Source of the DNA: Acidobacteriota bacterium
GTDB lineage: Bacteria; Zixibacteria; MSB-5A5; GN15; FEB-12
Assembly: GCA_035529075.1 (NCBI GenBank)
Contig: DATKXK010000005.1
Location: forward strand, 132,981-196,980
Reading direction: 5' to 3'
DNA: 64,000 nt
The notes beneath the pieces were generated by a model that was not told the DNA's origin, searched no databases, and saw only the letters and a program-made list of their open reading frames with translations. Positions 1 through 53,600 of the stretch are shown here, in pieces; positions within the stretch are counted from its first letter, which is position 1; the number at the start of each line of letters is the position of its first letter. Made by a program: the position numbers and the translations under genes.

Positions 1-66
1 GTATTCAAAGAGGAAGATGAATACCCAGACAACTATGCTGCCGATAACGTAGCGTGATGCGTTCAT
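1..66 (-). CDS. N-terminus of a small membrane protein, cut by the window edge
   Basis: Only the first 22 codons are visible, read leftwards off the window. The ATG at 64-66 is preceded by a near-perfect Shine-Dalgarno (AAAGGAGGA, about 70-80 on the plus strand), which is the main reason to call it. The peptide starts MNASRYVIGS and then runs into an uninterrupted hydrophobic stretch (IVVWVFIFLF) ending in a glutamate, as in the first transmembrane helix of a small inner-membrane protein. The family cannot be named from so little sequence. Confidence 0.6.
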   Translation of the reverse strand, partial: MNASRYVIGSIVVWVFIFLFEY

Positions 67-598
67 ACGTGGTCCTCCTTTACCGGTGATCCGGATGTCC
101 CTTTCCCGGGAAATGCACTGAAACCAGCCGGAACCTATGCCCTGTTTGAAAAGGTGGCAAGATTTATCACGCCGTGGCTTCAAGTGCCTGAGCGGCGGCG
201 AAGCTTGAGGATGCAGCCGGGACACCGGTCGGATTCCGGCTTGACATTTTCATCCAGGCGACTATCTTGGAAGGGCAAGAACAGAGAACCGGAAAAGCAG
301 TCGCAGCAGAGAGGAGGCGTGACGTATGAGAGTTGTTGGGTTAAAGGTTGTTGTCTTGTCGCGCCTCGGCAGAGCCTGCCGCTGAGTTCCGGCAATCGCG
401 CCTGAGAAGTCATCGGCCGCCCTGTTGCGGGTGGTCGTGCTTGCAGGATCATTACCGTTGGCGTGACGAGCGTCCGCGGCCTTTTTTCGGGCAATCATTC
501 CCGCTATAGCCCCGGAACAACCACCTTACGGCTAATTCTGCACCCCGGCGTGCACGCGCCGGGTGCATCATCGTGACGCGAAAACGAGGAAACGGAAA
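67..598. other. Intergenic region between divergent genes
   Basis: No convincing gene. The open frames here (for example 154-405 on plus) lack a ribosome site and give compositionally odd, arginine- and serine-rich peptides. The region must hold the start signals for the left-edge gene and for rsgA. The only clear structure is the hairpin at 539-567. Confidence 0.6.
539..567 (+). promoter_or_regulatory. Strong hairpin in the rsgA leader
   Basis: The arms TGCACCC (539-545) and GGGTGCA (561-567) pair. After one bulged C they continue as GGCG/CGCC, closing a six-base loop TGCACG. The hairpin ends about 15 bases before the rsgA ribosome site. It could be a terminator remnant without a T tract, an mRNA-stabilising leader or a protein-binding dyad. 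The structure is seen directly; its role is unknown. Confidence 0.5.
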
Positions 599-19473: not shown

Positions 19474-20334
19474 TTGGGCTGCTTTTTTGTTTCAGATCTG
19501 CACGGAGATACCGAACGCTATCAGAAGCTGTTTGCCGCCGTCACTGACGAACTGCCCGCGGCGGTGTTTCTCGGCGGTGATCTCCTGCCGTCGGCCGCGG
19601 CGCGGGTCGCCGCCGCCGGCTCATCCGATCATGATTTCGTGACCGCGTTCCTGGTGCCGGGATTTGCCGAGACACGGCGGATCTGCGGCTCGAAGTACCC
19701 GCGCGTGTTCCTGATCCTGGGTAACGACGACAGGCGCGACGAGGAGACGGCGATAGTGCGCGGGGAATCCGGGGGCTTGTGGGAGTACGTGCACGAACGC
19801 TGTGTGCCGTTTTCATCCTTTCGTGTGTGCGGGTACGCCTGCGTGCCGCCTACGCCGTTTCACTTGAAGGACTGGGAGCGATACGACGTGTCGCGCCACG
19901 TTGATCCGGGGTCCGTGTCGCCGGAGCGGGGGTGGCGAACGACGCCGGTTTCGGAAAGGGAGATCCGGTACTCAACGATACAGCAGGACCTGGATCGCCT
20001 GGCAGGGAAGCAGGACCTGACCAGCGGGATAATGCTGTTCCACGCGCCCCCGTACAACACCGGCCTGGACCGTGCCGGGCTTGACGGCCGGATGGTGGAC
20101 GGCGTGCCGCTCGACGTGCACGTCGGCAGCATTGCCGTGCGACGCTTTATTGAATCCAGACAACCGCTGCTGACCCTGCACGGCCACATTCATGAATCGC
20201 CCCGGCTGACGGGCGCCTGGCGGGAACGTATCGGTCGTACGTTCCTTTTCTCGGCCGCTCACGACGGTTCTGAGCTGGCTCTGGTGCGGTTTGACCCGGC
20301 CGGTCCGGAGACCGCATCCAGGGAACTGTTATAA
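19474..20334 (+). CDS. Calcineurin-like metallophosphoesterase
   Basis: 286-residue cytoplasmic protein. Metal-ligand motifs appear in order: SDLHGD right at the N-terminus, GGDLLP, LGNDD (the GNH/D block) and LHGHIHESPR near the C-terminus, the usual two-metal phosphoesterase core. The substrate is unknown. It starts at TTG (19474) with GAGGAG ten bases upstream; any later start would remove the first metal motif. Its stop region overlaps by 6 bases the end of the convergent ATP-grasp gene. Confidence 0.8.
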   Translation: MGCFFVSDLHGDTERYQKLFAAVTDELPAAVFLGGDLLPSAAARVAAAGSSDHDFVTAFLVPGFAETRRICGSKYPRVFLILGNDDRRDEETAIVRGESGGLWEYVHERCVPFSSFRVCGYACVPPTPFHLKDWERYDVSRHVDPGSVSPERGWRTTPVSEREIRYSTIQQDLDRLAGKQDLTSGIMLFHAPPYNTGLDRAGLDGRMVDGVPLDVHVGSIAVRRFIESRQPLLTLHGHIHESPRLTGAWRERIGRTFLFSAAHDGSELALVRFDPAGPETASRELL

Positions 20335-23300
20335 CGGCTTTTTCACCTGTGTGCCCAGAGACAGTTGCTTGGCGGTATCGGTTACGGCGTCGATCTTGGC
20401 GGCGTAGCTTGTTCTCTTCGTGATATCCTCATCGGTGACGAAGTGGGCGTCCAGCAGGCCGCCGGATCGATAGCCCGTCCTGAGGTAGTTCAGATGATCC
20501 AGGCACAGACTCCAGCCTTCAAGCCACTCCTGCAGCGCCTTTCGCTGTTCGTCGGTTCCGTCAAGATGCAACAGGATGTCGATATCACTGGCATCTCCCG
20601 CCGTGGCGTTCTTGGTGCTGCCGATCACGTAGAACGCTTTCACGCCGAAACGCTTGGGGTCAAGCTGGGCCGCCACGTGCTCCGCCATCAGCATCCGCCA
20701 GCGCCAGCTGCCATCCGGCCGTCTGTCACCGTGGTTCATACGGGGTTGGGCATCGGTGACGTCAAACGACGGGTCGGCCAGTATCCCCACCGCCTGGCCA
20801 AGCTCGGCATTCATCAGTACCCTCAGGATCGAGCCGTCGGTCACGCTGGCGACGTCGATCAGGCGGACGGTGTCGCCGAGCGACGAAAACTCGGGCAGCA
20901 TGACGGGGAGCATGTTGGGCGAGCCGGTGAGAAACTTCTCGTTGAAAACAACGCTCTCGTCATCCGGGTACAGTGGCAGGTAGCGTATGCGTGCCTCCAC
21001 CAGGTCCTGGAAGAAGTGGGTGCCGAACGACAGATCGGGAACGTAATTACCCTTCTTGCGCGCCAATTCAATCAGCACGGCCGTGTTGTTGATCTGAGAG
21101 TAAGTGACGTTGACGCCGAGCTTGATGTCACCGCGGCTGCCCCATCGTCCGGGACCCATCAGTATGAACTGCCGTTTCGGCAATACCTTGTTGAGTTGCC
21201 CGACGGCCTGGCCGACGGCCGCGAGGTCTTTTCGGGACGTTAGGGCCGAGTACTTCTCCGGGTCGATATACACGATGTGGGAGATGTCCGGGACCCGGCC
21301 GTTTGACACGTATCGGTTCGCGGAGAAGACTATCTTGTCCTGCGGGGTATCGTGGGGGATGGGGGACGCATAGTCCTCCTCGGTACGGCTCTGGGCACGG
21401 CACTGCAGAAGATACAGGTCGCGGCCGTCGTGGGCGAATTCAACGTCCACGGGCATGCGCAGTTCTTCCTCCAGCACCGCCATCATTTCACGGATCTGCT
21501 CGATAAAGGTCGAGTTGGAGAAAAGCCCTTCGAACGTCACCACCACGTCGTCCTCGTCGAAGTCGATGCTGGAGCCGAGAGGCTGGTGGAGGTGGCCGTC
21601 ACGGTGTATGGACACGAGCTGGTTGATCTGCGGAAACTGGTATCCGAACTTCTTCAGCAGATCCGAGATGGCGACGGTTTCGAACACGTTCTTCTTGAGG
21701 TCGATGACGTCAATACGCTTCGGGGAATACCGCAGCACGTCGTCGGTCGTCGTGTTGACTCTCAACTGCGGCTGCCCGGGGGCCATCAGTATCGGATAAT
21801 CGTCGCTGAGCCGATCCACGGCACGCGTGCCGAGCCCGGGGACCATCCGGACCAGGCCGTCCTCGCGATTGATCCTCGGGGACCAGCGAAACTCGTTCCG
21901 GCTGAATACGACGCCGGCAAACGGCGGCAGGAAGTAATCGCCCACCTGGGAGCCGACAACCTTCTGGATCATGATGGCCATTTCCTCGGCAAAGTCGATC
22001 AGCCCGCGCTCGGCCCGGTACTCGATGGGATCGGGGCCGAAGGTTGAGGCGTATACCTCGGCAATGGCATCCAGCAGGGCGTCGAGCTTCTGCCGCTTGC
22101 TGCCCTGGTTGGCCAGGAAAAGGCTCTTGTACTTGCCGGAGAATGCGGCGCCCACACGGTCTTCCAAAAGACTTGAGCTTCGCACAATCAGCGGGCCGTC
22201 GCCGAAATCGTCCAGCGCCATCGACAGACCCTTGATCATTTCGGTCGGAAACGCGGAATTCTTGAACGTCCGCACGATGTGCGGATATTCGAGCCGAACC
22301 TGGTCGATCGGCTTGTATTTCTGTTCAACGATCTCGTCGAGGTTATTGTAGTGCATGAAATCCAGGAGCATGTCGGAGGAGACATGCCACGTCTTGGGCA
22401 CCTTCACCGCGCTCTGGCCCTTGACGCGTCTGGTGCCCTTCTTGACAATCTGCGAGGCAAGGTACAGGCCGGCGCTCTTGCCGCCCAGCTTGCCGTGGCT
22501 TTCAGGCGCAAAGATGATGTAGTTGAGCAGGTCGTGAAAATCACTGATCTTGATGTAGTTCTTGGCCACGTTTATATAGTCCAACTGGTCCGAAAGAAAG
22601 CGTCGGATAAGGGATACGGTGATCCCCTTGACGGCGGACGAGGTGAGGTCCGGTTCGCCCGGCGCCACGTGATGGAATCGGCGCACCGCGTCGGCGACTT
22701 CGGAGAGCGGGACGTTCCGGTTCACAACCTGCACCAGGAAACTCAGTTTATCTTCCTGAATCCATTTCTGAAGGCGCGACACCAGCTCGTCGTCAGTCAT
22801 GTGTTCCGCCGCGATCTGGAAGATTTCGTCGGCCATGCTGATCGGCAGGGCCAGCGGAGCCTGGCGGTAGGGACGATTGGCCTGTTCCACGGCCTGGTCC
22901 TCCGCAACCCTCTTGTGCGAACTGGAGCTTTGCAGCAGCTTCTCGGCTTCAGCGACCCCGCTCCAGGAGAGGTAGTTGAGCATTTTGTGCGACAGTTTGA
23001 TAAACAGGTTCCTGTCGGTCTGGCGAAGCAGTTCGAGCACCGTTCTCCACTCGCCGGCTTTGTGCTCGGCCAGGCCCTTCCTGGTCGTTTCCCAGTCCTG
23101 GAAGACCTGTTTGAGCTGGTAATGCAGGAGGAAGTGGCCGAGGCGATCGGCGATGGTCTTGATGAGCCGCGATTCCTCCTTGAGAAACGGCCCGTCGTCA
23201 GCCGGTGGCAATTCCTTGCCGTAGTATACGCTGATACTCCCCGCGGGCCTTTCCTGTACAATAATATCCGCACTCCTCACCCACGGTGTCTCCTCGAAAT

Positions 23301-23523
23301 CGGGAGGCTGGAAGATGTCGTCCTCAAACACGATTTGGACCGAACAGATGTCGGGATACTGCATGCCCGGTGGAATGGCCGTGAGGAGTTCCTTGAAGGC
23401 CGTGGCCGGATCGACGTCCGGTCTGTTCAGCAGTTCTTCGATCGCGTACAGGCAGTTCAGCTCCTTGGCGCGCTCGTGCAGAGAGTCCAGGAGCTTGTTG
23501 ACGGATTTTCTTTTGCCAGTCAT
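20329..23523 (-). CDS. GAF-like / ATP-grasp (PPDK N-domain) / nucleotidyltransferase multidomain protein
   Basis: 1064 residues, no signal or membrane segment. Regions in order: a GAF-like domain (about 15-135); a helical segment (about 140-340); an ATP-grasp domain like the N-terminal part of PPDK/PEP synthase (about 343-712: LGGKSAGL, PLIVRSSSLLED, SGVVF-like AGVVFSR, and VDVEFAHDG..LYLLQCRAQS). A module shared with the neighbouring gene follows (about 730-900, with MGPGRWGSRGD at 789-799 and FGTHFFQD at 833-840). The protein ends in a nucleotidyltransferase-type domain (about 940-1040: GST at 968-970, then D980-I-D982). The phosphohistidine swivel domain (GGxxSH) and the PEP/pyruvate barrel of PEP synthase are absent, so it cannot be a conventional PEP synthase. 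Its ATG overlaps the upstream stop (ATGA), so the two are coupled. Confidence 0.75.
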   Translation of the reverse strand: MTGKRKSVNKLLDSLHERAKELNCLYAIEELLNRPDVDPATAFKELLTAIPPGMQYPDICSVQIVFEDDIFQPPDFEETPWVRSADIIVQERPAGSISVYYGKELPPADDGPFLKEESRLIKTIADRLGHFLLHYQLKQVFQDWETTRKGLAEHKAGEWRTVLELLRQTDRNLFIKLSHKMLNYLSWSGVAEAEKLLQSSSSHKRVAEDQAVEQANRPYRQAPLALPISMADEIFQIAAEHMTDDELVSRLQKWIQEDKLSFLVQVVNRNVPLSEVADAVRRFHHVAPGEPDLTSSAVKGITVSLIRRFLSDQLDYINVAKNYIKISDFHDLLNYIIFAPESHGKLGGKSAGLYLASQIVKKGTRRVKGQSAVKVPKTWHVSSDMLLDFMHYNNLDEIVEQKYKPIDQVRLEYPHIVRTFKNSAFPTEMIKGLSMALDDFGDGPLIVRSSSLLEDRVGAAFSGKYKSLFLANQGSKRQKLDALLDAIAEVYASTFGPDPIEYRAERGLIDFAEEMAIMIQKVVGSQVGDYFLPPFAGVVFSRNEFRWSPRINREDGLVRMVPGLGTRAVDRLSDDYPILMAPGQPQLRVNTTTDDVLRYSPKRIDVIDLKKNVFETVAISDLLKKFGYQFPQINQLVSIHRDGHLHQPLGSSIDFDEDDVVVTFEGLFSNSTFIEQIREMMAVLEEELRMPVDVEFAHDGRDLYLLQCRAQSRTEEDYASPIPHDTPQDKIVFSANRYVSNGRVPDISHIVYIDPEKYSALTSRKDLAAVGQAVGQLNKVLPKRQFILMGPGRWGSRGDIKLGVNVTYSQINNTAVLIELARKKGNYVPDLSFGTHFFQDLVEARIRYLPLYPDDESVVFNEKFLTGSPNMLPVMLPEFSSLGDTVRLIDVASVTDGSILRVLMNAELGQAVGILADPSFDVTDAQPRMNHGDRRPDGSWRWRMLMAEHVAAQLDPKRFGVKAFYVIGSTKNATAGDASDIDILLHLDGTDEQRKALQEWLEGWSLCLDHLNYLRTGYRSGGLLDAHFVTDEDITKRTSYAAKIDAVTDTAKQLSLGTQVKKPL

Positions 23524-25271
23524 GAGAATACCACACCCCGGCCATGGCGACCATCGACCCTGACTTTCAAGGGCGATGACAGCCGCACGTGGCGTACATT
23601 ATCGGTTTCTGTGAACGTTGGCCGGCCGTTAAGCCAGGACCAGTCGATAGAATGCTCTCCATCGTGACGCACGGAGAAATAGCAGATCCGGAAGCTGGTG
23701 ATGTTGTGGAAGAAGTGTGAGCCCTGGCTCAGTTCGACGTTCATTTCCGGCAAGGTAGCTTCCACGATTACCTTCGCGCCGGATATCTGGGCCCAGTTGA
23801 CCGGCGTGCCGAGCCAGGGGTCGGTGCTTCCCCACCGGCCAAAGCCGATGAGCAGGTAAGGACGTCCCTCCGCGACCAGGCGGCGATTAAGTTTCTCAAG
23901 TTCCCGGGCGATCAGGGGCGTCCGGCGGGCACTGAACCGCTCCGGTCGGACGTAAACGACGTCATGGATTGTCTCGAAACACCCGTTTCCCATGACCCGG
24001 CTCGATGCGATCAGCACGCCGTCCGCGCTCAACTCGGTCTCGGCAACGTCCACTACTTCGTGCGAGACGACCATCGGCCTGACTTGCAGGAAGCCGAAAC
24101 GCACCGGTGTGTCACTCCGGGAATCCACGGTCAGGGCGAACTCGATCTCGACTTTGGTTCCGACCGCTTTTTCAGACTGTTCGAGCAACTCCCGTACGAG
24201 GTCGTTCACCGGTATCTCGCCCAGTTGCAGGATGGGCCTGAAGTTGATAATGCGCGGCCCGTCGGCGGCTGTGCCCATTACGATCCGATCATCCTGTGCC
24301 ACGTACGTGGACGCGACGTGGCGCAGGGTGTCGTCCATCTCGGCATCCGCCAGGCGGCACCTCACAAGATACTCGGTCTCCCGTAAGGGGTCAAAGGCCG
24401 GGGGTTTCCCCATGTTGACAGCCCAGAAGTCCGTCTGTGTCTGTTCCAGTTGGTCGGCAATAGTGAACGGCGGGTCGACCGACGGGTAAACCGGCGAGTA
24501 CGACCAGCACTTGCCGCCGTCGACAATCGTTTTCCCCAGCCCCAGGGCCAGGCTGACGATACCGTCCTCAGGTTCGGCCCGTCCTACCGGGTAGAAATTG
24601 TAGGATCGCGCCACCCCGGAGACGGCCGGGTAGAAGCGATCCTGGGACCGCTGACCCACAACTTCCTGAATGATGACGGCCATCTTCTCCTCACTGATCG
24701 TCCGGCTGGTCATCGCGGCGTAGCTCCTGGCCGCACTCAGGTACGTGGATGCATAGACGAACTTTATTGCCTCGGTCAGCTTTTTGAATCGCGTGTCCGC
24801 ATCGGCCTGGTTGTTCGGGATCATCTTGGTTGCGTAGATGCCGGCGAACGGCTCGAACATGGCGTCTTCCAGGAGGCTCGATGAGCGGACGGCCACGGGC
24901 TGGTGGATCTTGGCGACGAGGGCGCGCAGATCACCGACGACTGCGGCCGGAATCGCACCGTTCTGGAAGGCGGCGGCTATGCGCTCGTCAGGTTCATCGG
25001 ACAGCGCGATGTCCTCAAGACGGTTCTGCTCGATAAAGGCGTCAAACACGTCGGTCGTCAGAACCGTGAGATTGGGGATGTTCACGGCAACGTTGCGAAA
25101 CATGCCGGCCTCGAAATGCGACGCGAGCACCTTGTGCATGAAGGCGAGCCCCGATGCCTTGCCGCCGAGACCGCCCGAGCCGATGCGAGTGAAGGTTTCA
25201 CGGCCGTCGAAGAACTGGCGGTCAAAACGAGGAATATCCGACGCACCGGATACGTACTGCCGGCGATTCAC
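23520..25271 (-). CDS. ATP-grasp (PPDK N-domain) protein with the same unnamed C-terminal module
   Basis: About 583 residues from the GTG at 25271, which has GGGAG upstream; a TTG at 25310 is possible. The ATP-grasp region shows LGGKASGL near the N-terminus, PVAVRSSSLLED, MAVIIQEVVG, SGVARSYNF and VEIEFAL...FGFLQVRPM, matching the nucleotide-binding half of PPDK/PEP synthase. After it come IGFGRWGSTDPWLGTP and SQGSHFFHN, collinear with the downstream gene. No swivel or PEP-binding domain follows. It probably transfers a phosphoryl or similar group from ATP to an unknown acceptor. It is cotranscribed with the 1064-residue paralogue (4-base overlap). A glutamate dehydrogenase-type gene lies 180 bases upstream on the same strand and could be part of the transcript. 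Confidence 0.75.
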   Translation of the reverse strand: MNRRQYVSGASDIPRFDRQFFDGRETFTRIGSGGLGGKASGLAFMHKVLASHFEAGMFRNVAVNIPNLTVLTTDVFDAFIEQNRLEDIALSDEPDERIAAAFQNGAIPAAVVGDLRALVAKIHQPVAVRSSSLLEDAMFEPFAGIYATKMIPNNQADADTRFKKLTEAIKFVYASTYLSAARSYAAMTSRTISEEKMAVIIQEVVGQRSQDRFYPAVSGVARSYNFYPVGRAEPEDGIVSLALGLGKTIVDGGKCWSYSPVYPSVDPPFTIADQLEQTQTDFWAVNMGKPPAFDPLRETEYLVRCRLADAEMDDTLRHVASTYVAQDDRIVMGTAADGPRIINFRPILQLGEIPVNDLVRELLEQSEKAVGTKVEIEFALTVDSRSDTPVRFGFLQVRPMVVSHEVVDVAETELSADGVLIASSRVMGNGCFETIHDVVYVRPERFSARRTPLIARELEKLNRRLVAEGRPYLLIGFGRWGSTDPWLGTPVNWAQISGAKVIVEATLPEMNVELSQGSHFFHNITSFRICYFSVRHDGEHSIDWSWLNGRPTFTETDNVRHVRLSSPLKVRVDGRHGRGVVFS

Positions 25272-25453
25272 CGCACTTTTCTCCCTTCCCGGACCCAGGT
25301 AATACCTCAATACTCAAAATACCATCGATCGATCCGCCAGCCAATACAATTGTACCGGCACGTGAACGCAGGGTTCGGGCCGGTTCGTCACCGCGCGGAC
25401 AATTCGTCATGGCGGCGCCGGCCGGAGGGCCTGTGTATGCTTGATCGTCGGAA

Positions 25454-26746
25454 TCAGACCCAGCCGCGATCCCGGCAAGCGTGAACCACTCGTTCAACCG
25501 CGATTACGTAAGCTGCATCGCGCATGTACAGCTTCCTCTTACGTGCCAGCTCGCTTACGGCCTGAAATGCCGCAGTCATCCTGACGTCCAGCTTTCCCAG
25601 AACCTCGTCCTTCTCCCAGAAGTAGTTCATGTTGCTCTGAACTTGTTCGAAGTAGCTGCACGTCACGCCGCCGGCGTTGGCCAGGAAGTCGGGAATCATG
25701 AAGATATTTCGCTGCTCGATGGCGCTGTCGGCCTCCGGCGTGGTGGGTCCGTTGGCGCCCTCGGCAATGAGCTTTACCTTCTTGCTTATCTTATCGACGT
25801 TGTCGCCGGTAATCTGGTTTTCAAGCGCCGCCGGAATCAGGATGTCGACGTTTTGCTCGAGCCAGGCGTCGCCGGGAAGGACGTCGTAGCCCAGGGCTCC
25901 GGCTTTCTCCTTGTCGATGCCCCCGAACCGGTCGGTTATGCCAAGCAGGGCGTCTATGTCAATACCCTGCTCCTTGCGATAGGCGTATGAAACCTGGTCA
26001 TTCTGGTCCCAGCACGAGACGCAGGTGACGGTACCGCCGATCTGCTGGTACAGCCGAATCGCGTATTGGGCTACGTTTCCAAATCCTTGGACCGAGGCCG
26101 TCGTATCCTGGGGTCGGATTTCGAGTTGTCGGAGAGCTTCCCGGACGGTAAAAATGACGCCGTAGCCGGTGGCCTCCGTGCGTCCAAGGGAACCACCCAT
26201 GCCGACCGGCTTGCCGGTGATAAATCCGGGGTACTTGCCGCCGTGCAGGTGCTCGAATTCGTCGAGCATCCAGAGCATGTGCTGGGCACTGGTCATCACG
26301 TCAGGGGCAGGGATGTCTGATACCGGGCCGACGTTCTTGGCCAGTTGCCGTACCCAGCCCCTGCAAATCTTTTCCTGTTCCCGTGCGCTCAGGTTGTGCG
26401 GATCACAGACCACACCGCCCTTGCCGCCTCCCAGCGGTATGTCGACGACTGCGCACTTCCATGTCATCCACATGGCCAGCGCGCGGACGGTGTCGATGGT
26501 TTCCTGGGGGTGGAACCGGATACCTCCTTTGCACGGACCGCGCGCGTCGTTATGCTGCACACGGAAACCGTGCAGCACCTTGACGCTGCCGTCGTCCAGC
26601 CGAATGGGAATCAGAAACTGGTATTCCCGGAGCGGGTTGCGCAGCAACTCGCGCGTTGCTTCATCGAGTTCGAGGAAATCGGCAACTTTGTCGAACTGAG
26701 CCTGAGCCATTTCGAAGGCGTTGAATGCTCGATCTGCCATTGCCAA
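25454..26746 (-). CDS. gdhA: Glu/Leu/Phe/Val dehydrogenase family protein, probably glutamate dehydrogenase
   Basis: Oxidative deamination of glutamate to 2-oxoglutarate (or the reverse). The 430 residues match the roughly 420-residue hexameric class. Visible are the substrate-binding PCKGGIRFHP, the catalytic region WKCAVVDIPLGGGKGGV, the catalytic aspartate in DIPAPDVMT, GSLGRTEATGYGV, and the Rossmann motif VQGFGNVAQYA. I prefer glutamate over branched-chain or aromatic substrates on length and overall pattern, but specificity and cofactor cannot be fixed by eye. A good promoter lies upstream at 26851-26879. Confidence 0.85.
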   Translation of the reverse strand: MAMADRAFNAFEMAQAQFDKVADFLELDEATRELLRNPLREYQFLIPIRLDDGSVKVLHGFRVQHNDARGPCKGGIRFHPQETIDTVRALAMWMTWKCAVVDIPLGGGKGGVVCDPHNLSAREQEKICRGWVRQLAKNVGPVSDIPAPDVMTSAQHMLWMLDEFEHLHGGKYPGFITGKPVGMGGSLGRTEATGYGVIFTVREALRQLEIRPQDTTASVQGFGNVAQYAIRLYQQIGGTVTCVSCWDQNDQVSYAYRKEQGIDIDALLGITDRFGGIDKEKAGALGYDVLPGDAWLEQNVDILIPAALENQITGDNVDKISKKVKLIAEGANGPTTPEADSAIEQRNIFMIPDFLANAGGVTCSYFEQVQSNMNYFWEKDEVLGKLDVRMTAAFQAVSELARKRKLYMRDAAYVIAVERVVHACRDRGWV

Positions 26747-29505: not shown

Positions 29506-31065
29506 TCAGTGACACTCGGCACAGACATCGGCGTTGATTACCGTCTTGCCGTGCTCGCTGACTGAATGGCAACTGGAGCAGGCCAGCTCCATGTCTTCTA
29601 CGTGTGCCTGATGCGGCAGCTCGCCGTCTTCGTACCTGACCGTCTCGGGCTGGAGATAGCTGCCGTGGCAGAAGACGGTGCACGTGTTCTCGGGTTTGAG
29701 GCCGGCCCCGCGGTCTGGCGGTGAGTAGGCCGGATCAATGCCTTTCATCTCGGTTTCCAGCCTGTCAGCGCCGGTGTTGAGTATGGTCAGCGCGTAGGGG
29801 ATATTATGCGGGATTCGCCCGTCGCGCACGAACAGGAAGTTGCCCTCGGCCGCGCTCAGGGCCTCCCGTGCCCTGGTTCTCGCCTTCTTGCCGCCGCCGA
29901 TTGTTTTGAGGTCCGAGCGAAGGCGGGTCAGATACGCCTGATACTGTTCTATCACGTGCCTGGAGCCGACCAGCCAGGCGTCGAACATCAGGTCGAATCC
30001 CTTGCCGTGGCAGGTCACGCAAGCGGCGCGTTCGGCTTCTCGCTTGGCCTGACCCGAAAGAACCTCCCCTTCAGGAGTAACGTGGGTGTGGCATCCGGTG
30101 CAGGCAACCTGTTGTCGGAACATAACGCCGGGCATGTCCGCCGTGTTTTTCGCGCCGATCCCCATGTACAGTTGCTTCTTTCGGTTGTGCTGGTTCAGGT
30201 GGCAGGTCTCGCACCCGGTGTCGGTGGCGCCGGTCATCTCGTAATTGCCGTGTTCGATGTCGGAATGGCATTCGAAGCAGTCGATGCCGTTCGTCGTGAC
30301 GTGGATGGCGTGGAGCTCCTCGCGGCTGTGCTGCTGTGGATCGCGCTCGTTGTGGCAGGCATGGCAGGTGCCGGGTACGAGCGACCCGTCACCTTCGACA
30401 ATCCGCGTATGGCACTGCTTGCATTCGAAGCCGAGTTTCACGTACGGTTCGTGCTCGAAGGTGAACCCGTTGTGGCTGACGGGATCTTTCGGCATCCCGT
30501 GGCAGGCGTCACAGCCGGTGATGGCTTCCCCCAGGCCGGCGTCCTTGAAGTGGCAGACGAAACAGGCCTTGTCGTTGACGGTCAGGTGCGTGGAAGTCAG
30601 CTCCTCGTGCACGTGGACGAACTGGTTGTGGCAGGAGGTACACCGCAGCTTCTCGCCCCGGAGGGGTTTCTCCAGGTGGACGGCGTGATCGAACAGGATT
30701 CCCTGGCGGTATTCGGTCATCCCCATCAGCAGTCGCGCCTCGTGGCAGTCCGAGGCCAGGCACCCTTCATCCGGTACGTTGGCCCGGGGCCGCGGGTTGT
30801 AAGTGCCGGTGAGGTACGTGTACGTAGAGCGGGCAAGGTCGGCCATGGAATAGTCATGGCACCCTTGGCAGGTGACCTCGGAGTGGGTTGACGCCCGCCA
30901 GTACCGCACGAACGGGTCCAGATAGTGGCAGGTGTCGCAGGCGGCCGACTCGCGCGTCCCGTACGCGAGGGCAGCGATGAGCACGATGCAAAGGCCGCCA
31001 AGTATGCTCAGAAACATTACCAGGCCTCGACTATGCCGGCCAAGCGACCGGAGAAACCGCCTCAT
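29506..31065 (-). CDS. Multihaem c-type cytochrome, about 15 haem sites
   Basis: 519 residues, starting at the ATG at 31065, which has AAGGAGGTG upstream and overlaps the cytochrome b stop (ATGA). An N-terminal hydrophobic helix (GLVMFLSILGGLCIVLIAALAY) anchors or exports the protein. I count 13 CxxCH motifs plus one CxxxxCH (CLASDCH) and one CxxxCH (CTVFCH). The last CxxCH (CAECH) forms the final five residues. Many extra histidines between motifs can serve as distal ligands, as in NapC/NrfH-like and octahaem-type electron carriers. It is the last gene of the operon and lies directly after the membrane cytochrome b. It would take electrons from the quinol-oxidising subunit to a periplasmic or surface acceptor. 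Confidence 0.88.
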   Translation of the reverse strand: MRRFLRSLGRHSRGLVMFLSILGGLCIVLIAALAYGTRESAACDTCHYLDPFVRYWRASTHSEVTCQGCHDYSMADLARSTYTYLTGTYNPRPRANVPDEGCLASDCHEARLLMGMTEYRQGILFDHAVHLEKPLRGEKLRCTSCHNQFVHVHEELTSTHLTVNDKACFVCHFKDAGLGEAITGCDACHGMPKDPVSHNGFTFEHEPYVKLGFECKQCHTRIVEGDGSLVPGTCHACHNERDPQQHSREELHAIHVTTNGIDCFECHSDIEHGNYEMTGATDTGCETCHLNQHNRKKQLYMGIGAKNTADMPGVMFRQQVACTGCHTHVTPEGEVLSGQAKREAERAACVTCHGKGFDLMFDAWLVGSRHVIEQYQAYLTRLRSDLKTIGGGKKARTRAREALSAAEGNFLFVRDGRIPHNIPYALTILNTGADRLETEMKGIDPAYSPPDRGAGLKPENTCTVFCHGSYLQPETVRYEDGELPHQAHVEDMELACSSCHSVSEHGKTVINADVCAECH

Positions 31066-32015
31066 GACGCCACCTCCTTGTCGTCGACGCCGCTTTGTAG
31101 CTGTGCGGCCAGTTCCTGCCGCTCCGCCTGCAGGATTTCCGCGTATTCCAGGGGATGATGGTGTTTCATCTGGCTCTCCGTCAGCCGGCCGTGCCACCAG
31201 ACCTTGCTCATGGGAAAGACTTCCGGGTTCAGGTGCACGTTGTAGAAATGCCAGATGACGATGGCCAGGGTGGCGAGCAGACCCTCGTCGGAGTGTGCCT
31301 CGCGCGCGATGTCGTACCCGTACTTGGGAAACATCTCGCTGAACCAGAGAATGATGCCGGACCCGATCATGATCACCATACCCCAGTATACGGCCCAGTA
31401 GTCGAATTTCTCGATGAACGAGAACCGGCCGGACCTGGACCCGTGTGACCGACGGCCAATGAAGTACATCACGGTATGATAGAAGTCGATGACGTCGCGC
31501 GGCCGCGGTATCATGAGGATGAAATCACCCCGGCCCACCCGAGACAGCGTGGAGTACAGCAGATGCCAGATTCCCACGAGGATCAGGCCGACCGCTCCGA
31601 TGCGGTGAACGAGCGACGAGTTCTCCAGGCCGCCGAACAAATCCACGATGATGAACTTCGAAACCCCGAATTCCGGGAACTTGAGCGGGATCCCGGTGAT
31701 GATGAGCAGGATGACGGAGGTGAACAAGAGAACGTGCTGGCTGCGGAAGTTCAGCCCGAAACGGACAAAAGTGCGCTCCGCCGCGGCCTCTTCGGGAATG
31801 CGCTTTCTCCCGGGGCTGTATTTTGTGACTACCTCGTTGAGCGCCACGTTGGTTTCGAACTCGAGACGCTCGCTGATCTCGGCGGCGGTCTTTTTCAGCG
31901 CTTCCTCCGGCGTGTCGGGGTCGGTCAGGGGGGCGGCTGATTCGATGATGTTCTCCGTCAGCTGTTCGATCAGCCGGCGGCGCTCGGACAGTTTCTGCGA
32001 AGTCTGGTCATCCAT
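31062..32015 (-). CDS. Membrane cytochrome b subunit (formate dehydrogenase gamma / thiosulfate reductase-like)
   Basis: 317 residues. A soluble acidic N-terminal segment of about 85 residues is followed by four to five transmembrane helices. Histidines sit in helix contexts suited to two b haems: FRSQHVLLF, SLVHRIGAVGLILVGIWHLLY and REAHSDEGLLATLAIVIWHFYNVHL. This is the layout of di-haem quinol-oxidising cytochrome b proteins. It sits between multihaem genes on the minus strand, overlapping the 519-residue cytochrome by 4 bases and separated by 8 bases from the upstream one. I infer that it passes menaquinol electrons to these c-type cytochromes. The N-terminal extension is longer than in simple FdnI-type subunits. 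Confidence 0.83.
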   Translation of the reverse strand: MDDQTSQKLSERRRLIEQLTENIIESAAPLTDPDTPEEALKKTAAEISERLEFETNVALNEVVTKYSPGRKRIPEEAAAERTFVRFGLNFRSQHVLLFTSVILLIITGIPLKFPEFGVSKFIIVDLFGGLENSSLVHRIGAVGLILVGIWHLLYSTLSRVGRGDFILMIPRPRDVIDFYHTVMYFIGRRSHGSRSGRFSFIEKFDYWAVYWGMVIMIGSGIILWFSEMFPKYGYDIAREAHSDEGLLATLAIVIWHFYNVHLNPEVFPMSKVWWHGRLTESQMKHHHPLEYAEILQAERQELAAQLQSGVDDKEVAS

Positions 32016-44663: not shown

Positions 44664-47600
44664 TTACTTGAGCAATACCATCTTCCTGGTGGCGCTGAAG
44701 CCTCCAGCCGTCAGACGGTAAAAGTAGACACCTGATGCGTATCTACCGGCATCCCACTCGATTTGATAATAACCCGCTTCGTCCCTGCCGGACCAGTTCT
44801 CAACCTGTTGACCGAGGATGTTGTAAACCACGAGGTGCCAGTCGCTGGCCACCGGCAGCGCGTATTCGAGAACCGTCATCGGGTTGAACGGGTTGGGATA
44901 GTTCTGCGACAACGAGAACCGGTCAGGCACGTCTTTGACCTTCGCCTTCACCACCTGACCGTCGAAGCTGCCGACCTGGATCGTCCTGATCCAGGTGCGG
45001 CCGTCCAGTTCGAGCACGGGGCCGGCGCCCAGCACGGTCTCACCCTTCTCGTTGTAGATTAACACACGGGTTTCGGAGTCGTCGTGGCGATACTGCATCT
45101 CCATGAAGGAGGCATTTTCGTGCAGGCGCGGAGTGACCTTGCCGCTCAGGACGACGTAAATGGCCCCGATCGGTGCATCGGACTGCTCGATGCACAACAC
45201 GTTGCCCGTGACCGAGAACTCGGCCTGAAGATCGGCATTCGGGTTGATCTTCGGCATCTGCTGGGCGTCTCCCACGACCACGCGAATCAGGTAAACCAGG
45301 TCCGCCACCGTAAGCGGAATACCGTCGCCGTTGACATCGCTGGCGGCGATGGCGGCATCGACCCGCCGCCCGGTGCCGAAGGCATCCGGGCCGCGAGTGA
45401 AGTAATTGGTGAACATCACGGCATCCGCGATCTCGTAGGCGAGGCCGTTGAGGTTGATATCGCCGCGCATGTCGATCGAGTCAGAGGGGACGATGTCTAC
45501 GCCGCCGTTGGTGAAGTCGACACAGCGCGCCGGCTTCGGTTTGTCCGGTCCCTGGCCGAGCAGGCAGAGGTCGGGAGCGCCAAAGTAGCCCGGGAAGCCG
45601 TAGCTGATATCGGTGATCGCGTTCAGGTCGAAGGTGTACACGTTACGGGAAATCCAGAGCGTGTCGCCTTCCCGCGAGGAGAACGCGTTGTCACCGCACT
45701 CGGTCCAGAAGAACGACACCGGCGCAAACTGACCCTCCAGGGTCCGGTCGTTGGATACGAGGAACCTGATCGTCGCCAGTGTGCCCGTCATCCCGTCGAG
45801 GAAGCAGCCCGGGTGGTAGGCGCCGTTGTTGGTTTCGGCTATGGCCACGAGCCGCAGAAGGCCGGTCGGGCATGATTCGCAGTTGCCGTCGGCGCCGAAG
45901 CGGTAGGTGAAGTACTCCCAGCCGCACATGTCAAGCAGGTCGCCGGGCAGGGCCAGGGCGGGATTGAGCGCCGTGACGTCATACCAGACCAGGAAGTTGA
46001 ATCCGCCCAGCTCGTGCCCCGAGCCGTTAAGGAAGATTCTCAGGTCCGTAAACTGCCCCTGGACGACATTGTGACTCTTCTCGATCTGGACGTGGACGCA
46101 CTGGTCGACCTCGACCGTAACGCAGATCGTATCGACGTCCGTACAATGCAACGGATCCGTCTCCCCGGAGCAGCCGTCCGTGGCCGTGACCTGGAAACAG
46201 TACACGCCCGTGGTGTCGGCGTCAAAACATATCTGGCCCGTAAGATCGTCGTAGTGGGCGATATCGGGAACGACCGTGACGTCGGCAAGATTGCCGTCGT
46301 TGTCCGAGATATCCGCGGTGAAACAGAGTTCACCCACCGACTCGAGGTAGGCGGTGAAGTCAGGTGGCAGCGACACCACCGGCGGTGCGTTGAAATCGAC
46401 GGTGATGGTCGTGGTGTCGTAGTCCTCGGCGCCGCAGGAGTCGGTCGCCTTTATAATGAAGGTGTATGACTTGTCATCGCCCGTGCCGTACCCGGCGCCG
46501 AAACAGATCTGACCGGTCTGGTCGTTGTAGCTGCCGGTCGACGACATCAACTCGACCGAGGCCAGGTTGCCGTCCTGGTCCGAGGCGTCGACGCTGATGC
46601 AGATCGTCGTGTCATCGCAGGCGAGAATCGTCTGGGGTTCGGGGAGCACGACCAACGGCGCCGCGTTGATGCTGAAGCTGACCTGGAACGAGTCTATGCA
46701 GTGCGCCCCGCAGGAGTCAACGCACATGACCACAACCCACACGGTTTCGTCAGTGGACGGCGTGTACGACCAGTTCCCGCCGACAATCGAGCCGGGTCCT
46801 GAAATCAGTTCACAATGGTCGTAGTTGCCGTCCGGATCGGTCGCGCTCACGGGCAGGCTCACCTGCGACGGCGAACACTGGAAGAACTGCGTGACGCCCT
46901 GCGGCACCTGGCAGGTGGGGTCGGAGTTCAGAGTCACCGTCACCCGGGAGGTGTCCTCGTCCGCGGCGCCGCAGTCATCCACGGCCCGCAGGATGAACGT
47001 ATAGGTTCCGGACGTATCGGGCGTGAAACACACCGTGGAGCCGTCATAGGTGCCTTCCCCGGTCGTCAGGTAGCAACTGTCGAGGTTTGCATCTTCGTCG
47101 GAGCACGCCGCCGCCCGGCATACCTGGGCGGGATTGCACAGGTACAGCCCGGTGTCGGGGGCAAGGGAGGCGACCGGCGGCCGATTGAATCCCACCGTGA
47201 CGACCAGCGTGTCGGCACCCGCCGCGCCGCAGGCGTCGGTGGCCCGCAGCACGAAGGAGTAAGTGCCGGCGACGGTAGGGGTGAAGCAGAACTGGTTGGC
47301 CAGTGTATCCAGAACGCTGCCGGGGGGACTCTCGACGAGTTCCTCTACCGTGACGTTATCGTCGCCGTCCAGAACGGTGTACAGGAAGCAAACCTCCTGG
47401 GCGGCGCAGAGGTAGACGGCCGTATCCTCGGGCAGCGACACCACCGGTTTGCCGTTAAGGGTGACGTTGATGACGGCGACCAGCGTGTCGGCCGCGTTGC
47501 AACTGTCGAGGATCTCGGCGGTAACGCTGTAGCTGCCGCTCGTCGGGGCATCGAAGCACCAGAGGCCGCCCGGGGTCACCGTGCCGTTTCCGGAAAGGCG

Positions 47601-50600
47601 CCGCCATTCATACAGGTCGCCGTCCGCGTCGGTAGCCGCAAACTGGGCGCAAATCTGGCCGGCGGCGCAGAGGAAGGTATCGACGGACGGCGGGTTGGTG
47701 GCCACCGGCGGGCTGTTAATGGTGATGTCGGCGATAAGCAGACAGGTATCCGTGCCGCAGTCGGTGGCGGCGACGATCTGGAGTTCATAGTGTCCGCTGG
47801 TATCGGCCGGGAAGCACACGTTACCGCCAGTGTACGTGCCGATCGGGGTGATCGTGACTACCGCACCGGTACCCACCACACCGACCGGCACACACACCGT
47901 ATCGGGTGTACACAGGAAGCGATCGATCGGGTCGGGACAATCGATCTGAGCCGCCTGACCGATGCTGACGTTAAAGACCAGTTCGCAGGTATCAGCGCCG
48001 CAGGTGTCCGCGGCGATGACGGTCACCGGGTAGGTGCCGGACGTGTCAGCGAAGAAGCAGAGTTCGCCGTTCGCCCAGGAGCCGTAGGAAACGGTGACGT
48101 TTGCGGTGGACGGTGTGACGTCGAGCATCTGACACACGTCGTCCGGCGTACACAGAGAAACTTCTATGGGGCTCGCGGGGCAGTCAATCTGCGCCCGCGC
48201 GCCAATGGCAATGGTAACAACGATCGTGTCCAGGCCCGCTGCACCGCATGAATCGGTGGCGCGGACGATGAACTCGTAGCTTCCGGCCGCGGAAGGCGTG
48301 AAGCATACGGTGTTGGCGACCGTGTCAATTGTTCCGTACCCGGACAGCATGGATTCGACAATCCCCGAGAGCCCGTCCGGATCGAACACCTGATAACCCA
48401 CGCAGACGGGTTCAGGCTGGCACATTTCGAGCGACGTGTCGCTGTCCAGCGTGACCATCGGCGCGCTGTTGATCGTGACGTCGATTACGGCAGTGTCCAC
48501 GGACGACTCGCCGCAGTCGTCGACGGCCTCGAGCGCGAACAGGTACGTGCCGGACTGAGTGGGGTTAAAACAGATTCGGCTGCCATCGTACGTGGCCGGG
48601 GTGGAACTGCTAAAGATGCAATCAGTGAGATTGCCGTCGGCGTCACTGCACGAGGCCGGCCAGCAAAGCGTGGTCGCGTCATCGCACAGGAACACGTCCT
48701 GGTCCCCGCCGGCATCGGCCACCGGGGCCGTGTTGACCACCACACCGACATTTATAGTGTCCCTGGCCACGCGGCCGCACTCGTCCTCCATCGCGAGCAC
48801 AAAGGTGTAGGTGCCGGAAGAGCCGGGAGTGAAACAAATCTCCGAGTTGATCGTATCCAGCGTTCCGGCGCCCGTCTCCAGGACGAGCGTGCGGGAGCGC
48901 GGATCGTTGGGGTCATAGGCCGTGTACGGCAGGCAGATACTCGACGACAGGCACAGCGTGGTGTCGAAATCCGGGCCGAACTGCACGACCGGTGATTCAT
49001 TTATCTCGAACTCAACCTTGAACGACGACGTGCACTCGGCCCCGCAACTGTCGAGACAGCGGACGGTCACGGTGACGCTCTGGCTTGTCACCGGCGTGTA
49101 GCACCAGTCGCCGCCTGTGAGAACACCCGGACCCGAGACGATCTGACAGAGTTCGAGGTTTCCGTCGATATCCGTGGCATACGCAGGCAGGCAGACCTCG
49201 GAGGCCGCGCACTGGAAAATAGTGGTATCGCTTGGCATCACGCAGACGGGGCCGGAGTTGATGGTCACGTCTATGACCACCGTATCGCGATCAACGGCGC
49301 CGCAGGCGTCGCTGGCTTCAAGGACGAACTGGTAGGCACCGGAGGCGCCCGGCGTGAAGCAGATGTTATCGCTGTCATAGGTGCCGGGACCGGAGATCAG
49401 CGCGCAGTCGGAGAGATTGCCGTCGACGTCGCTGCAGCCGGCCGGCCAGCAGATCTGGTCCGGCGAGCACAGGAACAGCGCCTGGTCCGCACCGGCGTCT
49501 GCAACCGGCGGGCTGTTCAGGGTGTAGTGAACAACCACCGTATCGAAGCTCGCCGTGCCGCAGCTGTCGGTGGCTTTCAGCACGAACTCGTAATCGAGCG
49601 TGCCCGTGGGAGTGAAACAAATGTTGGTACCGTCATAGGTGCCCGGGCCGGTAATCAGCTCAACCACCTGCAGGTTTCCGTCGGGATCACTCACGGAGGT
49701 CGGCCAGCAGATCGCCTGGGGAGCGCACTGGAACACCGTCTTGTCTTCCCCGGCAAAGACCACCGGAGGATCGTTGAAGTCGACCGCCACGAGGAGCGTA
49801 TCGTAAACCGCCACGCCGCACGAATCTGTCACCCGTGCGACAAACTCGTAATTCCCCGCTACCGGGGGCGTAAAGCACAGCAGGTCGGAGCCGACAAAGA
49901 GAGCGCCGCCGCCGCTGATCAGTTCCACGGCGGCCACGTTGCCTTCCGCGTCGTAAAGGGAGAACGGCAGGCAGATTTGTTCGGCCAGGCACAGGAAAAC
50001 GCCCGTATCGTTGCCCAGCGAAAAGACCGGCGGCGTGTTGACCGTCGCGTCAAGGGTCAGGCTCACGGTATCAGCAGCACCGCACGAATCGGCAACTTCG
50101 GCCGTAACGGAGAAGCTGCCGGTGCTGCCGGCCGTGACGCACCACTGGCCCGAAGGACCGACCGTGCCGTCGCCGGTCAGCCGTGACCAGGTAAGCGTTC
50201 CGCCATCCGGGTCGTCGGCCCCGAACTGATAGCACACCTGGCCGGGATCGCAGAGGAAGGTGTCGAGCGGCGAGGGCGGGTCGACCGCAAGCGGAGGCCG
50301 GTTGATCTGCACGTCGGCGATCACGATACACGTGTCAGTACCGCAGCCCGTCGAGGCGACAACTTCGATTTCGTAATGGCCGCTGGTGTCGGCAGGGAAA
50401 CAGACATGGCCGGCGGAATAGGTGCCGATCGGGCTGACCGTCACTACCGGTGAAGGACCCATGATTCCGACCGGGATGCACACCGACTGCGCCTCACAGA
50501 TAAATATGGATTGCGGATCCGGGCACGCAATCTGTGCCGCCTCACCGATTTCGACGACGAACGTGACGACGCACGTGTCGGCGCCGCACGACGTCTCGGC

Positions 50601-53600
50601 GATCACGGTGACTTCGTAGGTGCCCGACGTGTCGGAGTAGATGCACAACTCACCGTTCGCGTATATGCCGTTGGAAACCGTTACCGAAGCCGAGGCGGGC
50701 GTTATGGGCAGCATCTGGCAGACGGTGTCCGGTTCGCAGAGTGAGACGTGAATCGGCTCGGTCGGGCAGTCAATGGAGGCGAATTGACCGAGCGTCACCG
50801 TCACGACAATCGTATCTTTGTCGAAGGCCGAGCAGGAGTCGGTCACGCGCACCACGAATTCATAGGTGCCGCCGGCCGTGGGTGTGAAGCAGATCCTGTC
50901 GGCGGCCGTGTCTATGCTTCCGTAGCCGGAAACCATTTCTTCTATCAGACCCGCCGGACCCTGGGGGTCGGACGGCGTATAGACGAGACAAATCTCTTCG
51001 GGAGCACACAGGGAGACCGACGTATCGTTGCCGAAGGCCACCGTGGGCGGGTCGTTAACCGTTATTTCGTAGGTCTTGCCGGTGGTGTCGGCCGCGCCGC
51101 AGGTGTCCGTTACAGCCAGTGTCACGGCGTAGCTTCCCGACTCATCCGGTGTAAAGCACCACAGGCCGGCGGGGCTGACCGTGCCGTCGCCGGTAAGTTT
51201 TGTCCACGTCAGGGGATCACCATCGGTATCGTTGGCCTGAAACTGGTAACAGATTTCCTCCACCGTGCAGAGGGTCCGCGGCATGGGGCTGGTCGGATCG
51301 ACTGTTACCGGCGCCGAGTTGAGCGTGACATAATAGATGATCGACGTGGTATCGGCGGCACCGCAGGAGTCAGCCACGATGACCGTGGCGGTGTAAGAAC
51401 CGGAGGCCGTCGGCGTCAGGCAGAATTCACCGTCCGGCGATATCGTACCGGCGCCGGCCAGGAAGCTCCAGACAAGCGGGCCGCCGTTGGGGTCCGTGGC
51501 GGTGAAGGTGTAACAGACCTCCACCGTGTCGCACAGGAAAACGGTGACGGGCGACGGCGGCTCGGCGACCGGCGGATCGTTCCTGTCAATCGTTACCACC
51601 ACCGTGTCCCGGTCTTCAAGACCGCAGGCATCGACGGCACGAATCACAAATGTATGGGCGCCGCTCGTGGCCGGCGTGAAACAGATCTGGTCATCGACCA
51701 GGCTGCCGGGGCCGGACAGCAACTCGCTGACGACCAGGTTGCCATCGGCGTCGTGAAACGAAACCGGGAGACAAATCTGCTCGAAGTCGCAGACGAACAG
51801 AGACTGGTCCGGCCCGGCCGCGGCGTGCGGCGCCGAATTCAGCGTCACGGTAACGAGAATCATGTCCGTGCTCTCGTAGCCGCAGGCGTCGGTGGCAGTG
51901 GCAATCACCTCGTACACACCGGACGTGTCGGCGGCGAAGCAGATATCCTCCGTTGTCGGTGACGGTGCCGTGCGGGCGGCCAGGGCGTCGATCTCTACCG
52001 GCCCGGCAAGACACGAGATTTTTACCTCGTTAAAGACGAGGCCATCCGGCAGGTCAAACGTAATACCGCCTATTCCCGAGCCGGCTGACCCGCCCGGAAA
52101 GACGCGCGTGAGGGTGTGGACCGTTACGCCGTTGAGCCTGAACTGCAATTCGGCCGTGCCGCCGCCGTTGGTGTTGGTGAATACAACGAAGTCGGTATTG
52201 GCGCCGTTGCACGTGGTGACAGCCTGGCTGTATCCAACTGTACAGAAGTTACCCGCCGCAAACGCCAGGGAACCATCCCCGTCACCGCCGTCGGGACCGC
52301 CGGGGCCGGGAGCGGTGAAGGTCATGTCGGTCGGTGGGCCTGCCAGATGATCGGCGGAGTTACCCGGTTCCAGGCCGGTTGGGAACGACCCGTAGTCAAC
52401 GATGAAGTCGACAAAGCCAAAATCCGGCAGCGTGACGTCGACGCCCGACTGCGAGTTGACCGGCGGGACAAAGTCCGAGGCGATGTACAGGACCTTACCG
52501 GGAGCACCGCCGCCTATCTGAATGATCGTTCCGCCGAGATGGTCCAGGCGAGCCACCTGATCGAAATTCGTCAGCGTGCCGGAATACTGCCCCAGATTGG
52601 TCGTGACGGAGGTCACGTCGCAATCGGCGTCCAGAACGTCGAGTGGCAGGCAGATCTCCGCCGGGTCACACAGGAAGATGGCCGTGTCATCGGGCAGGAC
52701 CACCACGGGAGCGGTGCCGACGGTAACCTCATAGATAATCTGAAGGGTATCGGCGCCGCCGGTGCCGTCGATTACTTCGAACACGGCCGTATAGGCGCCG
52801 CTCGTGGACGGACTAAAGTCATAGTAGCCGACGACCGGAGAGACGGAAGGCGTCGAGCTCAGGAAGCCCGGTCCGGACAGAAGGGTCATGGTCAGGACGT
52901 CGCCCGGATTAGGATCGGTGGCGATAATCGTATCGTATACGGCCTCGCCGGAGCATATCACGACCGTGTCGGTGCCGCCCGGCGTCACGAAGTTGGGGGG
53001 CATGAAGGGCGGACAGAATACCGTCGAAAACTGTATCCCGTTCGCCTCGTACGCCCAGCTTCCGGTGTAGCGGTCACCGTAAGTGGTGCCAGGAACAATC
53101 AGGCCGTTCATATTGAACGTGGCGCCCGGCAGGCTCTTGGGCGTGAAGCGGCTGGTATTGGGGTCGTCGATTGGATCGTTAAGCTGGTACTGGTCGGTTA
53201 TTCCTGCATAGGTGTCGACGAATCCGGGGACTGAAGACAGCAACGTCAGGTCGTCGCCAAGGTACACCTGGTCGGCGTTAAACGCCACGGTGTGGCCGGA
53301 ACTCCAGAGGTTGAAGTCGATCGCACAGCCGGCTACCACGATCCCGAGCGTGTCGCGGAAATCCCCCGTATCCTTAATCTTGGCATAGTCGATGGTGATA
53401 TCCCACCAGATTTCGTACAGGTTCTCGGCGATGGAATCAGGCCACCTGACCCAGCCCCAGCGGTCGTTCTGCTTCAGGTCGCACGAAAGCTCGAATCCCT
53501 GTGCCCACAGGTTCACAGCCGGCGTCGGATCCTGTTCCATCGTCACCAGAATGCTGCCGTGGAACTGTTCCAGCGATTGCCCGCGTGAATACAGGAAGTT

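Follow-up and report, generated by a model that had tools for sequence, protein, structure and literature searches.

Paired ATP-grasp proteins with a putative divergent phosphohistidine swivel, encoded beside glutamate dehydrogenase: candidate regulatory relatives of PEP synthase

We analysed a stretch of DNA of 64,000 nucleotides (the window) in which two minus-strand genes, P2 and P1, overlap by 4 bases. Both open reading frames had been proposed in an earlier note made from the sequence, and their coordinates, strand and overlap were borne out. The start codon of P2 is a GTG at 25271, and an alternative TTG at 25310 would give a longer protein. Directly upstream of the pair is a glutamate dehydrogenase (GDH) gene with Pfam matches to PF00208 (E 1e-70) and PF02812 (E 7e-53). 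The earlier note had recognised the pair and overlooked both this gene and a third and fourth paralogue, P3 and P4, in the same genome. The features of the locus are as follows.

19474 to 20334, plus strand: metallophosphoesterase (PF00149, E 1e-5), convergent with P1 and slightly overlapping its end
20329 to 23523, minus strand: P1, 1064 aa; GAF domain, helical region, ATP-grasp, putative divergent swivel and nucleotidyltransferase
20362 to 20706, minus strand: P1 nucleotidyltransferase (MNT-type), residues about 940-1054; GSTKN...SDID...LLD with D980, D982 and D1025
20944 to 21336, minus strand: P1 putative divergent swivel with GRWGS and GTHFF, residues about 730-860, from homology to the P2 module
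21016 to 21018, minus strand: P1 His836, proposed phosphohistidine
21352 to 22494, minus strand: P1 ATP-grasp, residues 344-724; PF01326 (PPDK_N)
23086 to 23496, minus strand: P1 GAF domain, residues about 10-146, from VIA-align
23520 to 25271, minus strand: P2, 583 aa, GTG start; ATP-grasp and putative divergent swivel
23523 to 24023, minus strand: P2 putative divergent phosphohistidine swivel (GRWGS/GSHFF module), residues about 417-583, from alignment of the AlphaFold model
23715 to 23717, minus strand: P2 His519, proposed phosphohistidine, which the model puts at the N-terminus of helix 518-526
24048 to 25181, minus strand: P2 ATP-grasp, residues about 31-408; PF01326 (PPDK_N)
25454 to 26746, minus strand: GDH, ELFV family, 430 aa, directly upstream of the P2-P1 pair

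Two other parts of the window were also annotated. A 3084-residue open reading frame (44664-53918, minus strand) contains several copies of bacterial Ig/PKD-type domains and ends in a Por_Secre_tail sorting domain; its giant product is a putative surface protein that the type IX system would secrete. A multihaem cytochrome c protein of the c7/c3 families with weak MtrC/MtrF similarity (29506-31197, minus strand) lies in a run of minus-strand genes.

The proposal that both proteins carry an ATP-grasp domain of the PPDK/PEP synthase type was confirmed by Pfam PPDK_N matches (E 2e-57 for P1 and 3e-34 for P2), and the catalytic Lys, Arg, Glu, Gln and Arg characteristic of PEP synthase and PPDK are present in the pair. 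A collinear alignment of P1 with P2 spans about 560 residues and takes in both the ATP-grasp and the GRWGS/G(S/T)HFF module, with 27% identity (E 7e-38). Residue conservation was determined in 118 P2/P3 and 47 P1 sequences, which were picked without requiring the HFF motif. K38, R129, E377 and Q396 of P2 are invariant, K349, R448, E695, Q707 and R709 of P1 are invariant or nearly so, and the final ATP-grasp arginine is kept in every sequence but one. The HFF histidine is invariant in both sets (118/118 and 47/47), and it is the likely phosphate acceptor, a role that the earlier note had suggested as possible. From these sequences the ATP-grasp domains are complete and probably active, and the invariance of their residues together with that of the histidine argues for active enzymes. 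As the earlier note had claimed, Pfam showed no PEP/pyruvate barrel in either protein; P2 has no match beyond PPDK_N and ends with the putative swivel.

The shared module is real. Profiles of the P1 and P2 modules match each other (Prob 99.8, E 1e-28), the alignment of the two proteins runs through it, and an alignment of 46 relatives shows no variation at R, W, G or the HFF histidine. A central claim of the earlier note was that this module is new and has been swapped for a swivel that both proteins lack. Consistent with that claim, a profile search matched no characterised domain. Pfam PF00391, a PDB sequence search and profile-profile comparison, including that of a module-only profile with the swivels of PPDK and PEP synthase, all failed to recognise a swivel. 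When a profile of the ATP-grasp plus module was compared with PEP synthase, the ATP-grasp aligned (Prob 97.5, E 7e-12) and the histidine was left unpaired with the swivel histidine; none of the sequence alignments brought these two histidines together. Searching PDB sequences with the module returned weak matches to VAMP7 longin domains alone, which we judged to be due to chance.

The AlphaFold model, however, places the module on the swivel. The P2 model (pLDDT 87.9, pTM 0.88) has values mostly above 85 pLDDT in the module blocks, and its best structural matches were rifampin phosphotransferase, PEP synthase and PPDK, with HpeI also among the closest. VIA-align aligned residues 4..583 of the model to 11..465 of PEP synthase (2ols; 362 residues, Z 25.6) and residues 26..583 to 8..505 of PPDK (1dik; 348 residues, Z 18.3), whereas the top matches limited to the ATP-grasp aligned 229 to 282 residues. 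In the model the module runs strand, helix, strand, short helix, strand, loop, helix, strand, helix and strands, and the helix after the loop begins at S518-H519. This order of elements, in which a helix starts at the histidine, is that of a swivel. The distance between the ATP-grasp glutamine and the histidine is 123 in P2 (396 to 519) and 129 in P1, compared with 120 in PPDK (335 to 455). Because the P1 model is poor in the module region, we gave little weight to its VIA-align end points (846 to PPDK 465, and 848 to rifampin phosphotransferase 836), which would put His836 at, or at most one residue from, the catalytic histidines.

On account of its place, its strand and helix order, its spacing and its structural match, we read the module as a diverged swivel. 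Based on the predicted fold, it is most likely the swivel itself, highly diverged, and predicted structure, element order and spacing suggest that the HFF histidine is equivalent to the dikinase histidine. The swivel reported as absent thus appears in the predicted structure of P2, although sequence profiles miss it. The alternative, in which the swivel was lost and the GRWGS/GSHFF module is a truly new domain that binds a new substrate, accounts for the failure of the sequence comparisons but not for the swivel order of elements or for a structural alignment that extends to the end of the module, and we consider it highly improbable. The pair resembles PEP synthase and PPDK in having a PPDK_N ATP-grasp followed by a predicted swivel, collinear in predicted structure, and differs in that G(S/T)HFF replaces GGxTSH and in not being a PEP enzyme; what was lost relative to PEP synthase is probably the PEP/pyruvate barrel, not the swivel.

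P1 was found to contain two domains that the earlier note missed while correctly describing its ATP-grasp and module. The N-terminal GAF domain aligned to many GAF structures, including those of NifA and PtsP, with VIA-align Z scores of 12 to 9. The C-terminus matched PF01909 with an E of 5e-4 and a score of 20.9, slightly below the cut-off of 21, and Foldseek matched it to HEPN-MNT and MNT structures (prob 0.99, E 0.02-0.08). It has the GS...DxD motif and third carboxylate of the NTP_transf_2/MNT group: G968-S969 is conserved, D980 and D1025 are each found in 47/47 P1 sequences and D982 in 45/47. Although fold match and motif are shared with MNT and HEPN-MNT proteins, the P1 domain is fused to a dikinase-like protein and is not a stand-alone antitoxin. 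Next to a P2-P1 pair at locus L052 (15523-18309, minus strand) a 929-aa P1-like protein is encoded, which has the GAF domain, the ATP-grasp and the module and lacks the nucleotidyltransferase; other family open reading frames of 920-946 aa may resemble it.

The two remaining paralogues differ in architecture. P3 consists of receiver domains followed by the ATP-grasp and module; the first receiver has no conserved acceptor aspartate at the expected position, and the acceptor aspartate of the second, D248, is invariant (16/16). P4 (L002:1471-3669, minus strand; G000:C1) is a P1 relative with 49% identity that consists of a GAF domain and an ATP-grasp and is truncated, stopping exactly where the ATP-grasp finishes and the module would start; the end of its ATP-grasp is partly degraded (LDFASDG...LLQCGRQ). 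The P4 gene is directly downstream of a Glu_synthase-domain gene (L002:3765-5105), and a search of the family for a conserved P4 partner gave no clear P4 orthologue. Several Zixibacteria have a LuxR-type response regulator gene between or beside the GdhA-type GDH and P3 genes (L075:5934-6683, plus strand; L041, L045 and L051-L053). Proteins of about 1150 aa with a GAF-type N-terminus, receiver-like sequence and the module are encoded beside P3 in Chlorobiota and Bacteroidales (regions L124:6204-6758 and L144:6197-6754), and are possible P1-P3 intermediates.

A scan of genome contigs identified at least 577 encoded relatives, of which 80 loci were retained and pooled with Zixibacteria loci. P1 followed P2 at 48 of 57 loci, in agreement with the two-gene unit across phyla that the earlier note had anticipated. 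A GDH gene was directly upstream on the same strand at 41 of the 51 P2 loci with room upstream, as it is in the window. These loci come from about ten bacterial phyla, among them Zixibacteria, Calditrichota, Ignavibacteria, Bacteroidota, Acidobacteriota, Planctomycetota and Spirochaetota, and their flanking genes differ. An archaeal locus (L145, Methanomassiliicoccales) has the order GDH, P3-like, P1, phosphoesterase, with the P3-like gene in the place of P2. About 60% of P3 loci have a directly adjacent GDH gene, and tandem GDH-P3-GDH-P3 arrays occur in L118 and L128. P2 was associated with the GDH type found in the window (40/41), whereas P3 was associated with the NADP GdhA type, as assigned by NCBIfam NF006929 above its cut-off (24/26; Fisher p 8e-15). 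Because the counts include truncated contigs and related genomes, this and the other linkage p-values are indicative only. The loci are not phylogenetically independent and come in many cases from one query. Active-site motifs of the linked GDHs are intact. For nine genomes we also read where the GDH genes and the module genes lie; the window's own genome has three ELFV-family genes, two of them beside module proteins, and all three of its module proteins sit in the two GDH loci. Thus, the claim of an undescribed system holds, but on the strength of the conserved GDH linkage, which lies outside the region to which the earlier note had confined itself.

The metallophosphoesterase gene is associated with P1, being present at 31 of 64 P1 loci and 2 of 56 other loci (Fisher p 9e-9, indicative because related genomes are included). 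In the multi-phylum set alone the corresponding values were 10/32 and 2/48 (p 0.0025, also indicative).

The closest precedent is VadK (Rv1127c) of M. tuberculosis, a PPDK relative without the pyruvate/PEP domain that autophosphorylates on His422 and binds enzymes encoded nearby; its proposed mode of action is the binding of methylcitrate enzymes, and its histidine was located by overlaying the published model on PPDK structures (PMC13400623). Compared by published architecture, P2 and VadK are alike in being PPDK-derived, with an ATP-grasp and a histidine swivel (predicted in P2) but no barrel. The systems differ in that the P1/P2 swivel is unrecognisable by sequence, that the P1/P2/P3 family adds GAF, receiver or nucleotidyltransferase domains, that P1 and P2 come as a pair, and that the enzyme to which they are linked is GDH. 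VadK regulates metabolic enzymes encoded nearby, and by analogy we propose the same for P1 and P2, with the linked GDH as the likeliest client.

In our model P1 and P2, as dikinase relatives that lack the barrel, serve GDH as regulatory phosphohistidine kinases, a reading to which we give a probability of roughly 55%. P2 by itself is very unlikely to carry out PEP chemistry, as it has no barrel. The ATP-grasp would phosphorylate the divergent swivel on its invariant HFF histidine. As the pair has no PEP/pyruvate site, the swivel would then offer its phosphate, or itself in phosphorylated form, to another protein. The likeliest recipient is the product of the neighbouring GDH gene, an enzyme whose activity would be altered. 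The GAF domain of P1 may sense a metabolite signal, and its nucleotidyltransferase, together with the adjoining metallophosphoesterase, may put a second modification on and take it off again, or may return the system to its starting state. P3 would play the same role for the other GDH type via its receiver domains. Linkage alone is no proof that GDH is a substrate.

We considered the possibility that the swivel instead phosphorylates a small metabolite of glutamate metabolism, giving a phosphorylated intermediate, in the manner of rifampin phosphotransferase or two-component HpeHI. Both rifampin phosphotransferase and HpeHI combine an ATP-grasp with a phosphohistidine swivel outside PEP metabolism (PMC4844700, PMC12167813), they provide the best structural matches to the ATP-grasp part, and HpeHI establishes that small-molecule dikinases can be split (PMC12167813). 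A role in such a pathway would also fit the GDH linkage. However, the drug- or phenol-binding domain of those enzymes was not seen in the pair, in which Pfam annotated no RIF-BD-type substrate-binding domain, and their domain order is different. P2 has nothing beyond its ATP-grasp and predicted swivel with which to bind a substrate, the extra domains of P1 are sensor- and transferase-like, and dedicated receiver and GAF domains point to signalling. We regard this explanation as unlikely.

Alternatively, nucleotidylation could be the output, with the P1 nucleotidyltransferase modifying GDH or another protein, the phosphoesterase reversing the modification, and the ATP-grasp and swivel serving as the switch. 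GlnE and GlnD nucleotidylate proteins in nitrogen control. The almost invariant active-site residues in 47 P1 proteins and the association of the phosphoesterase with P1 favor this arrangement, whereas the low sequence score of the P1 domain and its absence from some P1-like proteins, such as the one of 929 aa, do not. Moreover, P3 systems lack the domain yet keep the GDH linkage, so nucleotidylation is not the general output, and we have little confidence in this explanation. Control by binding alone, with the proteins merely binding nucleotides and GDH, has a precedent in mycobacterial GarA, which regulates GDH by binding, but is very unlikely given that, across phyla, the histidine and all of the catalytic ATP-grasp residues examined show little or no variation, a pattern that fits catalysis better.

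The preferred reading, regulatory phosphohistidine kinases for GDH, also recalls PtsP (EI-Ntr) of the nitrogen PTS, a phosphohistidine protein of nitrogen control that is joined to a GAF sensor (PMC4848567); the P1 GAF resembles GAF structures of PtsP. EI-Ntr uses PEP via its barrel, whereas the phosphate of the barrel-less P1 and P2 would come from the ATP-grasp. No description of this architecture, the divergent swivel or the GDH link was found in the open-licence PMC papers searched; the parts are of known kinds, and what is new relative to those papers is how they are combined, together with the diverged swivel and the link to GDH.

GDH connects carbon metabolism with nitrogen metabolism, and to our knowledge its post-translational control is poorly understood except in a few groups. 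If our model is correct, a pair adjoining GDH in many phyla, with parts that family models liken to PEP synthase, would be a common control system, one that annotation easily hides. It would also extend the recent idea from VadK that dikinases can become regulatory histidine kinases. More tentatively, these proteins may constitute a widespread ATP-driven phosphohistidine relay dedicated to GDH, with versions for two GDH types, GAF or receiver input and reversal by a phosphoesterase, that would serve as a hitherto undescribed general mechanism of nitrogen control in bacteria and at least one archaeon.
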